A program made the translations under genes and the position numbers. Source: Streptomyces sp. WAC08241 (GTDB lineage Bacteria; Actinomycetota; Actinomycetes; Streptomycetales; Streptomycetaceae). From it: a stretch of DNA of 64,000 nucleotides. The notes below the pieces were generated by a model, which saw only the letters and a program-made list of their open reading frames with translations, was not told the DNA's origin and made no database searches. The stretch spans positions 5,396,501-5,460,500 of the forward strand of contig CP042279.1 in NCBI GenBank assembly GCA_007858575.1. The letters run 5' to 3'. Shown here in pieces: positions 2,789 to 36,026 of this stretch. Positions within the stretch are counted from its first letter, which is position 1. Each line of letters starts with the position of its first letter.

Positions 2789-4266
2789 TCAGCTATCGCC
2801 GGTGCGTTCGCCCAGGACGACGGTGGTCGTGGCGGACTTGCCGTCGCGTTCGTAGGTGATCTCCACCGAGTCGCCCGGCTTGTGGGTCCAGATCTCGCTG
2901 ATGAGGGAGGGCCGCTGTCGATCTGGTGGCCGCCGAAGCCGGTGATCACGTCGCCCGGCTTCAGGCCCGCCTTGGCCGCGGGGCCGTTCGGGGTGACCGA
3001 GGAGGCGCCACCGGTGCCCCGGGCGGCGATCTCGGCGCCCTCGCCCTCGTCGTTCATGTTCACGGTCGCGCCGATCACCGGGTAGACCGGCTTGCCCGTC
3101 TTGATCAACTGCTGGGCGACGTTCTTCGCCTGGTTGACCGGGATCGCGAAGCCGAGGCCGATCGAGCCCGCCTGGGTCTGTCCGAAGCCGCCGCTGGTGG
3201 ACTGGATGGCGGAGTTGATGCCGATCACCGCGCCGCTCGCGTCGAGCAGCGGACCGCCGGAGTTGCCCGGGTTGATCGAGGCGTCCGTCTGCAGGGCGCT
3301 CATGTACGAGTTGCTGCCGCCGGAGCCGTCGCCCGAGGCGACCGGGCGGTTCTTGGCGCTGATGATGCCCGTCGTCACCGTGTTGGACAGGCCGAACGGA
3401 GCCCCGATCGCGATCGTCGAGTCCCCGACCGCCACCTTGTCCGAGTCGCCCAGCGGGAGCGGCTGGAGGTTCTTCGGGGCGTTCTTGAGCTTCAGGACCG
3501 CCACGTCGTAGCCCTCGGCCCGGCCGACGACCTCCGCGTCGTACGACTTGCCGTCGGAGAAGGTCACGGAGAGCGTGCCGCCGTCCGCCGCCGACGCCAC
3601 CACGTGGTTGTTGGTGACGATGTGGCCCTCCTGGTCGTACACGAAGCCCGTGCCCGTACCGCCCTCGCCCTGGGAACCGCCCGACTTCGCCTGAATGGTG
3701 ACCACGCTCGGCAGCGCCTTCGCCGCGACCGCCGCGACCGTCCCCGGGTCGCGCTTGAAGGAGGCCGGGGCCTCGCCCGAGGAGACGGTCGTCGAGCCGG
3801 TGCCGCCGTCCTCGTGCTGGGCCGCCCAGTAGCCGATGCCTCCGCCGACGCCGCCCGCGACGAGCGCCGCCGCCAGGACGGCCGCCACGAGACCGCCGGT
3901 CCGCTTGCGCGGCGCGGCGGGAGCCGGGGGTACGGGCGCGTGCGGGGCGCCCCAGGAGGAACGGCCGGCGGGGCGGCGGCCAGCCGCCCGCCGGGGCCGC
4001 GTGGGCGGCGTGAGCCGCGTGGGCCTTGGGGGCCGCGTGCTGGGCCTCGGGGGCCGCATGGGTTCCCTGGACCGTCGGGGCTCCCTGGGCGTTCGTGTCC
4101 GCCGGGTGGGCGGGGTGCGCCGCGGTCGGCTCGGAGGCCGGAGCCGAAGACGGCGCCGGATCCGGGGCCGGGGCCGGAGGGGCCGACGGGGGTACGGGAG
4201 GCGTCGGAGGGGCGGACGGAGCAGCCGGGTCCCCGGAACCGCCTGGCCCTCGTTCTCGGTGCTCAC
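2789..4266 (-). CDS. HtrA/DegP-like membrane-anchored serine protease with PDZ domain
   Basis: A trypsin-like protease of the HtrA family for extracytoplasmic protein quality control. The GTG at 4266 with an upstream AGGAGAG-type site gives MSTENEGQAVPG. A long Pro/Ala/His-rich cytoplasmic segment follows, then one membrane helix (GGLVAAVLAAALVAGG). The protease domain shows His in TNNHVV, Asp in YDVAVLKL and Ser in GNSGGPLL. A PDZ domain follows (GPAAKAGLKPGDVITGFGG) and the end is VVLGERTGDS. Frame changes occur near 4225, 3965 and 2920; the two domains are otherwise continuous. The alternative upstream start at 4488 would read through a DNA repeat and is unlikely. Confidence 0.9.
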
Positions 4267-8242: not shown

Positions 8243-8413
8243 CGGGCCCACCTGCTCCTGCTCGGCTGGAGATCCTGAACGGTGGGGCGAACATAGCGGC
8301 GGACCACGGGTGCCCGGACGGCCGCGCACCCGTTTCCCGTACGAGTCGGTCCGGGACGCACCCGTTCGGGTGAACGACCGCCGCCGCGCGCGACGGGAGA
8401 CGGCGGTCCGGCC

Positions 8414-20170: not shown

Positions 20171-21104
20171 ATGTCCGCCACCCGGTACACCTATCTCGGC
20201 CCCGAAGGCACCTTCACCGAAGCGGCGCTGCGCACGCTTCCCGAGGCCGCGACGCGGGAGCTCGTCCCCATGGTCTCGGTCCCGGCCGCCCTCGACGCCG
20301 TACGGAACGGGGAGGCCGCCGCCGCGCTCGTCCCGATCGAGAACTCGGTCGAGGGCGGGGTGACCGCGACCCTGGACGAACTGGCCTCCGGCGAGCCGCT
20401 GATGATCTACCGCGAGGTGCTCCTGCCGATCGCCTTCGCGCTCCTCGTCCGGCCCGGGACCGAACTCTCGGAGATCAAGACGGTCACAGGCCACCCGGTG
20501 GCCCAGCCGCAGGTCCGGAACTGGCTGCGGAAGCACCTGCCCGACGCCGTGTGGGAGTCGGCCGCGTCCAACGCGGACGGGGCCCGGCTGGTGCGCGAGG
20601 GCCGCTTCGACGCCGCCTTCGCGGGGGAGTTCGCGGCGGCGACGTACGGCCTGGAAGCGCTGGTCACCGAGATCCACGACGCGGAGAACGCCGAGACCCG
20701 CTTCGTGCTCGTGGGCCGGTTGCCCGGCCCGCGGCCCCGACGGGCGCGGACAAGACCTCGGTGGTGCTGTGGCTGGGTGACGATCATCCGGGTGCCCTCC
20801 TCGAACTGCTCCAGGAATTCGCGGTGCGCGGGGTGAACCTGATGCTGATTCAGTCCCGTCCCACGGGAGCGGGGATCGGGAACTACTGCTTCGCCGTGGA
20901 CGCCGAGGGCCATATCTCGGACCGGCGGGTGGGGAGGCGCTGATGGGGCTCAAGCGGATCTGCCCCAAGGTGCGCTTCCTCGGCTCGTACCCGCGGGCGG
21001 GCGTCGCGGTCGAGGACGTGCGGGCGCTGCGGCGCGGCACCTCGGACGGGGAGTTCATGGCGGCCTCCGACTGGTTGGCGAGGGCCCAGGACGGTCGGGC
21101 CTGA
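20171..21104 (+). CDS. pheA: Prephenate dehydratase
   Basis: Converts prephenate to phenylpyruvate in phenylalanine synthesis. The ATG at 20171 begins MSATRYTYLGPEGTFTEAAL. The catalytic domain shows ALVPIENSVEGGVTATLDEL, TVTGHPVAQPQVRNWL and the key DAENAETRFVLVGR (Thr-Arg-Phe active-site motif). An ACT regulatory domain follows (KTSVVLWLGDDHPGALLELL, GVNLMLIQSRPTG), with ESRP-like phenylalanine-binding residues read as QSRP. The end is GVAVEDVRALRRGTSDGEFM... at 21104. Frame changes near 20735 and 20930. The enzyme is free-standing, without a chorismate mutase domain. Confidence 0.92.
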
Positions 21105-21590
21105 TCCGAGAATGGCGGATCGCCCTCCGGAGCGTGCGCGGTCGTCCACAGGTACGAACCACTAGTCCTACCTGCATACTTTTGGTTACCCACAGAGGTT
21201 ATCCACAGGTATTCCGTACGACCTGGGGACAAGTCGACACCGCACTCCGGCAAGGTCGACAAATCGCCCTAGTCGCACCCCTTCGCCGAGGGCTCCATCC
21301 ACAGCGCTCCACCCGCACCCCCGTCAGCATCGCCCGAAAGACCCACTCTTCGGAGTGAGTGATTCCCACCCGAATGAGCGTCTCGATGCTGTTTGATCAC
21401 GGATTTCCCAGGCGCCGGGCGAGAAAAGCCTGCGACTCTTTCCATAGTCCACAGAACTTCCACACAGCCTGTGGATAACTAAATGCACACTCCTCGCCTC
21501 CGGCATTTCCGAGAGTGGCAATTCGGGCGAAACGGCACACGCCCCCTTATCCGGTGGGGTCGCGCCGACACGCACCGGTAGCCTGGTGGG
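21105..21590. other. pheA-serS intergenic region with clustered DnaA boxes
   Basis: A 486-base, relatively AT-rich gap. It contains DnaA-box-like 9-mers TCGTCCACA (21142-21150), TTACCCACA (21186-21194), TTATCCACA (21199-21207), TAGTCCACA (21445-21453) and, on the minus strand, TTATCCACA (21470-21478). Weaker matches occur near 21295. The serS promoter must lie in its right part. No ORF has a credible start or family features. Confidence 0.6.
21142..21478. promoter_or_regulatory. DnaA-box cluster
   Basis: Five 9-mers within 340 bases match TTNTCCACA exactly or with one mismatch; two (21199-21207 plus strand, 21470-21478 minus strand) are perfect TTATCCACA. This density is far above expectation in such GC-rich DNA. 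Clusters of DnaA boxes outside oriC that titrate DnaA are known in Streptomyces. Confidence 0.65.
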
Positions 21591-23680
<2,090 letters not shown>

Positions 23681-35972: not shown

Positions 35973-36026
35973 TTGTCCACAGAAAGGCCAACTTCCCTGT
36001 GGATAAGTCGGCTTGGCTGTGGATCA
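35973..36026. promoter_or_regulatory. Compact group of three DnaA boxes
   Basis: TTGTCCACA at 35973-35981 (plus), TTATCCACA at 35998-36006 (minus) and TGATCCACA at 36018-36026 (minus) lie within 54 bases in an AT-rich gap between the MerR regulator and the 2'-phosphotransferase gene. The first two are perfect matches to the Streptomyces/E. coli consensus. Confidence 0.7.

Follow-up and report, generated by a model that had tools for sequence, protein, structure and literature searches.

A conserved, helically phased cluster of DnaA boxes between pheA and serS in Streptomyces and related genera, a candidate brake on replication initiation

Background

The datA locus of Escherichia coli, a non-coding cluster of DnaA boxes outside oriC with an IHF site between its essential boxes, works as a DnaA-dependent brake on replication initiation, and opposed boxes are found in the cores of the DARS loci. 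In Streptomyces coelicolor, D78, a group of DnaA boxes within the oriC region, reportedly bound DnaA more strongly than oriC did, and its deletion is said to have raised initiation, in work attributed to Smulczyk-Krawczyszyn et al. in 2006. Passages of PMC5742627, PMC10950094 and PMC4585315 state that DnaA-box clusters repress untimely initiation in S. coelicolor (one of them adding "close to oriC") and likewise in Bacillus subtilis. For datA, further passages record that the spacing of its sites matters (PMC4585315) and that it is located downstream of a tRNA-Gly operon (PMC10950094), while published abstracts describe E. coli DARS1 and DARS2 as non-coding DnaA-binding sequences outside oriC that reactivate DnaA.

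Here we analyze a cluster of this general kind in the gap between pheA and serS, within a 64-kb window (C1:5396501-5460500, positions below being counted from its first base) of a 7.28-Mb genome whose closest SerS relatives are Streptomyces. Like datA, it is a non-coding DnaA-box cluster outside oriC that lies downstream of a gene unit, in this case pheA; it has a conserved spacer element between its box pairs, and differs in being built of two such inverted pairs, whose boxes B and E lie about 260-270 bp apart. It shares with D78 the placement in the oriC region of Streptomyces, with DARS1 and DARS2 the non-coding position outside oriC, the reported effect of those two being the opposite of a brake, and with the B. 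subtilis clusters, which reportedly repress untimely initiation, the proposed function. In the literature searched, we found among the matches listed no description of its family-wide spread, of its imperfect box C or of its phasing; likewise, no gene-gap position for D78 was found among the matches listed or in passages of PMC3411110, PMC4285127, PMC5742627, PMC13121528, PMC10950094, PMC13152386, PMC5301196 and PMC4585315.

Results and discussion

DnaA boxes of the pheA-serS gap

The pheA-serS gap (21104-21590) is 487 bp long and has a GC content of 60%, as against 72% in the 460 kb around oriC. Counting as a box any 9-mer that departs from TTRTCCACA at no more than one base, and as perfect TTRTCCACA itself, as the initial annotation did (the review PMC4285127 gives the perfect S. 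coelicolor box as TT(G/C)TCCACA), we find six boxes, two of them perfect. The initial annotation had placed a cluster of five boxes, two perfect, upstream of serS: the cluster is real, its two perfect boxes stand and pheA and serS are indeed its neighbors, with the total being six rather than five. Among 2000 dinucleotide shuffles of the gap, with a mean of 0.14 boxes and a maximum of 2, none had six boxes and none had two perfect ones. The whole window has 15 matches against 5.1 expected, the maximum among 100 shuffles being 14.

The left part of the cluster begins with the variable box A (TTACCCACA, 21186-21194, plus strand), which starts 13 bp before box B and differs between species. It is followed by the perfect box B (TTATCCACA, 21199-21207, plus strand), the imperfect box C (TTGTCCCCA, 21224-21232, minus strand), starting 25 bp after B, and two conserved GTCGACA repeats within 21233-21265 (21233-21239, and GTCGACAAATC at 21255-21265), which in minus-strand reading resemble two-mismatch boxes. 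The right part comprises box D (TAGTCCACA, 21445-21453, plus strand) and the perfect box E (TTATCCACA, 21470-21478, minus strand), which starts 25 bp after D and 271 bp after B; a box F on the minus strand about 30 bp further has been lost in the lineage of the window and was found in all but 33 of 211 loci. An outlying 9-mer, TCGTCCACA (21142-21150, plus strand), is common to some near relatives only and lies outside the conserved core. Directly before the serS start codon at 21591 is a conserved TAGCCT (21579-21584, plus strand), likely the -10 hexamer of a putative serS promoter.

Both flanking genes are on the plus strand and have broken reading frames (20171-21103 and 21591-22871): the N-terminal part of pheA spans 20171-20836, with the gene ending near 21103, and that of serS spans 21591-22088, with the frame broken downstream. 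Together with the genome completeness, given as 55.78%, this suggests that the assembly likely has many small insertion and deletion errors.

Between the left and right pairs lies a conserved spacer element (21345-21396) with a dyad-like core (21362-21382) that reads CTCACTCGAAAGTGAG in some other genera. A structured RNA in the spacer was considered and rejected: RNAalifold predicted no pairs over 94 unique sequences (the anchor was found in 96 of 123), and a comparison of the spacer with Rfam gave no match up to E = 1; the mean folding z of 24 single sequences was -0.38 relative to simple shuffles. The consensus core has no second copy in the genome at up to three mismatches, and therefore no regulon can be read from it.

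Position relative to oriC and other clusters

The genome has a single DnaA-domain match, at C1:5502260, with both the ATPase and the DNA-binding domain, and the 11 boxes following dnaA (5503499-5504060) are the expected oriC. By these coordinates the pheA-serS gap lies about 85 kb from dnaA/oriC, in keeping with the initial suggestion of a counterpart to the clusters described near oriC in S. coelicolor. GC skew around oriC was uninformative. In S. canus (G004 C1:3174689-3175171) a second protein, encoded by a 646-aa frame, gives a nearly full-length match to the DnaA ATPase domain (203 bits) besides dnaA.

A scan of 460 kb centered on the oriC region shows five places, oriC among them, where three or more boxes fall within 400 bp. 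Among the four others, the serS gap has the most boxes with six, followed by the crgA-rhomboid gap with five (three perfect), and by kptA and the region upstream of dnaB with three each. The kptA cluster (35973-36026), at the 5' end of that gene, consists of TTGTCCACA (plus strand), TTATCCACA (minus strand) starting 25 bp later and TGATCCACA (minus strand); the same 25-bp inverted pair as in the serS gap is thus seen here, and it recurs at kptA in S. fulvorobeus and S. canus. In the genome of the window, a further cluster immediately precedes dnaB (L014, about 8270-8357); it is also seen in four others (L315, L316, L318 and L321), and may reflect DnaA tuning of the replicative helicase gene. 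Across oriC, the cluster between the genes for the cell division protein CrgA and a rhomboid protease (L017, about 3877-4107; also L317 and L320) occurs in two other species as well. Genome-wide, perfect TTRTCCACA occurs 41 times against 16 for the pattern read backwards, and 13 of the 41 fall in a 106-kb stretch bounded by the serS gap and the crgA cluster, bounds that were picked after seeing the boxes.

On one side of dnaA, the serS, kptA and dnaB clusters lie at 84, 70 and 34 kb; on the other, the crgA cluster is 21 kb away. Perfect boxes were searched for in six genomes, and in the two for which full box lists were compared, the corresponding distances are about 75, 66 and 34 kb, with crgA about 19 kb away on the opposite side, in S. 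fulvorobeus, and 83, 72, 35 and 29 kb in S. canus; the neighboring genes agree in both, and the S. canus dnaB cluster contains a single perfect box. The initial annotation had offered either the serS gap or the kptA group at 35973 as the possible counterpart of D78. Each may be, and the kptA cluster may sit on the same cosmid as serS. If serS lies on cosmid D78, crgA on H69 and dnaB on H24, these would match the three published clusters, and on this assumption the serS-gap cluster is probably the counterpart of D78.

Conservation and layout

To trace the cluster among relatives we used the best 80 of 486 loci, picked by SerS similarity and not by boxes (79 titled Streptomyces and one "Actinobacteria bacterium"). 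All 80 have boxes in the 560 bp upstream of serS and 79 have at least three, with a mean of 5.8 boxes, 3.1 of them perfect, against 0.12 expected from the flanks of each locus. When 297 genomes sampled from the family were searched with the D-E pair pattern, 171 matched, in 9 of 17 genera, with the reversed-control columns at zero. Of 30 loci taken from this search 29 sit at serS, all of genus g7. Some other matches resemble the dnaB cluster, namely G254, G278 and a second match in each of five genomes; two of these were checked and are at dnaB, and the layout set described below was assembled from the remaining matches.

Among 29 serS loci sampled from the other genera, presence of the boxes follows pheA: all 22 loci with an adjacent pheA carry three or more boxes within 800 bp upstream of serS and none of the seven without it has any, and in lineages lacking this adjacency boxes were found near pheA in 8 of 8 genomes. 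In g3, g4 and g15 the boxes are downstream of pheA, with serS starting some 0.9 to 2.1 kb beyond them. In g2 and g5 boxes lie about 1 kb upstream of pheA and are at most possible homologs of the serS-gap cluster. Boxes near pheA were seen in each of the 17 sampled genera of the family, so that the non-conservation which the initial annotation had named as one half of its refutation was not observed. Outside the family, where 27 of 37 genomes gave loci covering the surroundings of serS (one with just 40 bp upstream), none of 26 upstream regions of 800 bp had a box; pheA was near in 13 of the 27, and six of the 27 whole loci had one or two scattered boxes.

The layout was followed in 238 loci, of which 80 were chosen by SerS, 141 by the D-E pattern (L104-L132, L203-L314) and 17 otherwise, one being without serS. 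A locus was taken to have it if B is perfect, C with at most one mismatch lies 23-26 bp on, and E holds CCTGTGGA; with B, E and the mismatch limit of C fixed by this rule, only the distances and the finding that C is not perfect are free results. Of 237 loci, most of them from Streptomyces and g7, 226 have the layout and 11 lack it. The 226 comprise 211 distinct sequences, some genomes being in the set twice. Over the genus sample it is present in 14 of 29 loci (g1, g6, g8, g9, g12, g13 and g16) and absent from 15, so that it is present in 8 of 17 genera and was not found at serS in sampled g2-g5, g10, g11, g14, g15 and g17. All tested loci of g10, g11, g14 and g17 lack it despite an adjacent pheA; those of g10, g11 and g14 (L147, L149, L151, L153-L155, L158) have four to seven pheA-serS boxes in a different arrangement, which indicates that the layout was rebuilt at least once.

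In none of the 211 distinct loci is box C perfect, and in 190 it starts 25 bp after B. It takes six one-mismatch forms (TTGTCCCCA in 154 loci, TTACCCACA in 30, TTATCCCCA in 19 and three others in 8), and this set of forms, none perfect, argues for a weak DnaA site rather than a site for another protein. Box C is perfect in L148, which alone of the loci left out of the set (L147-L151 and L153-L162) would pass the rule. The last six bases of box D, TCCACA, are in place in 206 of the 211, partly by selection.

Helical phasing of the box pairs

The distance between boxes B and E peaks at about 250, 260, 270, 281, 290 and 301 bp, and in 189 of the 211 loci it differs by no more than 2 bp from a value offset from 260 by a multiple of 10.5 bp, as it does in 25 of the 31 loci outside 255-275 bp. 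Steps of 4-35 bp in this distance, obtained by parsimony on a tree of 366 serS bases, on which repeated switches between 260 and 270 may be over-counted, have a mean cosine of 0.46 at 10.5 bp (44 steps), a value reached by none of 20000 control draws. The control steps were first pooled from 11 gene gaps (234 steps) that included the pheA-serS gap itself, and the comparison was repeated with the other ten neighboring gaps, many of them short or overlapping and bounded by mechanically assigned ORF ends, which gave 201 steps with a mean cosine of -0.03; in the three that are truly intergenic it is -0.07 over 75 steps. In 77 of the 80 named loci the B-E cosine is 0.57 over 13 steps, reached by 23 of 20000 draws.

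Phasing is seen as well in the distance between box E and the start of serS (0.42 over 69 steps, reached by none of 20000 control draws; in 77 of the 80 named loci 0.48 over 25 steps, a value that 8 of 20000 draws attained), and in that from the pheA stop to box B (0.31 over 61 steps), found in 148 of 226 loci. The length of the whole gap is weakly phased (0.15 over 33 steps), which counts against one register over the entire gap. The phasing fits a nucleoprotein structure without being specific to contact between the box pairs, and its extension towards the serS start suggests a possible link with serS transcription.

Functional inferences

The cluster is a real, strongly conserved representative of a known kind of element, and one probably already known in one species. 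Based on the observed sites, their conservation, spacing and position, and their persistence far from serS in some genera, we infer that DnaA would bind here, that the pairs might contact each other and that initiation would be restrained. We consider it likely, on the strength of comparative sequence analysis, that the serS gap belongs to the datA/D78 kind of locus and brakes initiation by titrating DnaA or promoting its inactivation. DnaA would bind the two inverted pairs, B/C and D/E, with starts 25 bp apart in each, while weaker flanking boxes, filled via their neighbors, would help the locus to load several DnaA molecules. At about 85 kb from oriC, the locus would be doubled soon after each initiation, and the doubled locus would take up DnaA or promote its inactivation, delaying the next round; the early-replicated position would couple the brake to initiation. 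In favor of such a brake are the six boxes against 0.14 expected, a cluster of several hundred bp outside oriC beyond chance, and the boxes staying behind pheA in g3, g4 and g15 although serS starts 0.9 to 2.1 kb on. Against it, the layout is not universal, box C is perfect in L148, box F was lost in the lineage of the window and the distance from E to the serS start is helically phased too.

This last observation would be expected if DnaA acted here as a transcription factor, with the cluster tuning serS, or pheA, to DnaA activity and replication being affected secondarily, if at all; the stepwise shifts of that distance (cosine 0.42) and the conserved -10-like hexamer beside the serS start codon both agree with such a role. 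We nevertheless regard it as unlikely, given that the same distance spans 120 to 422 bp among the 211 loci, that the boxes persist in g3, g4 and g15 even where serS is some 0.9 kb or more away, and that three further clusters beside kptA, dnaB and crgA make a similar set. A role in plain titration, in which the boxes merely soak up DnaA and their arrangement has no further meaning, seems to us likewise unlikely: the serS gap does have the most boxes of the four non-oriC clusters within 460 kb, and at least 9 of 17 genera keep boxes near pheA without the standard layout, but in the genera with the layout the 25-bp pairs, the imperfect C, the spacer element and the helical stepping would be unexpected if number alone counted.

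Given the opposed boxes of DARS cores, the inverted pairs in this non-coding stretch not far from oriC could also point to a DARS-like locus that reactivates DnaA and promotes initiation; this is very improbable, as the S. coelicolor clusters are stated to repress initiation in passages of PMC5742627, PMC10950094 and PMC4585315. Several boxes and a GC content below that of the surroundings might equally be read as a second replication origin, which is exceedingly unlikely in view of the 11-box group beside dnaA, the expected oriC. Moreover, the lowest GC fraction over 40 bp is 0.425 in the gap; oriC, with 0.45, is close to this value and the crgA cluster, with 0.35, lies below it, so that the gap is not conspicuously easy to melt.

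The brake may also take a more elaborate form, a bipartite DnaA machine shared by the greater part of the genus and by several of its relatives at genus level, with the pairs on one helix face and brought together by a looped spacer, box C weak on purpose, and the locus joined in a set of control sites with those at dnaB, kptA and crgA. As a joint claim this is rather unlikely. As part of it, the spacer element might be the functional counterpart of the datA IHF site, bound by an actinobacterial factor, and the weak box C might be filled only by ATP-DnaA or by DnaA held by its neighbors.

General conclusions

The restraint of initiation that the initial annotation ascribed to the serS-gap cluster is partly supported by comparison across genomes, as a probable function. 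How multi-genomic, filamentous bacteria limit the copying of their chromosomes is little understood, and a family-wide cluster of DnaA sites, arranged over much of the family in a standard layout whose spacing is phased, presents a precise and testable design.
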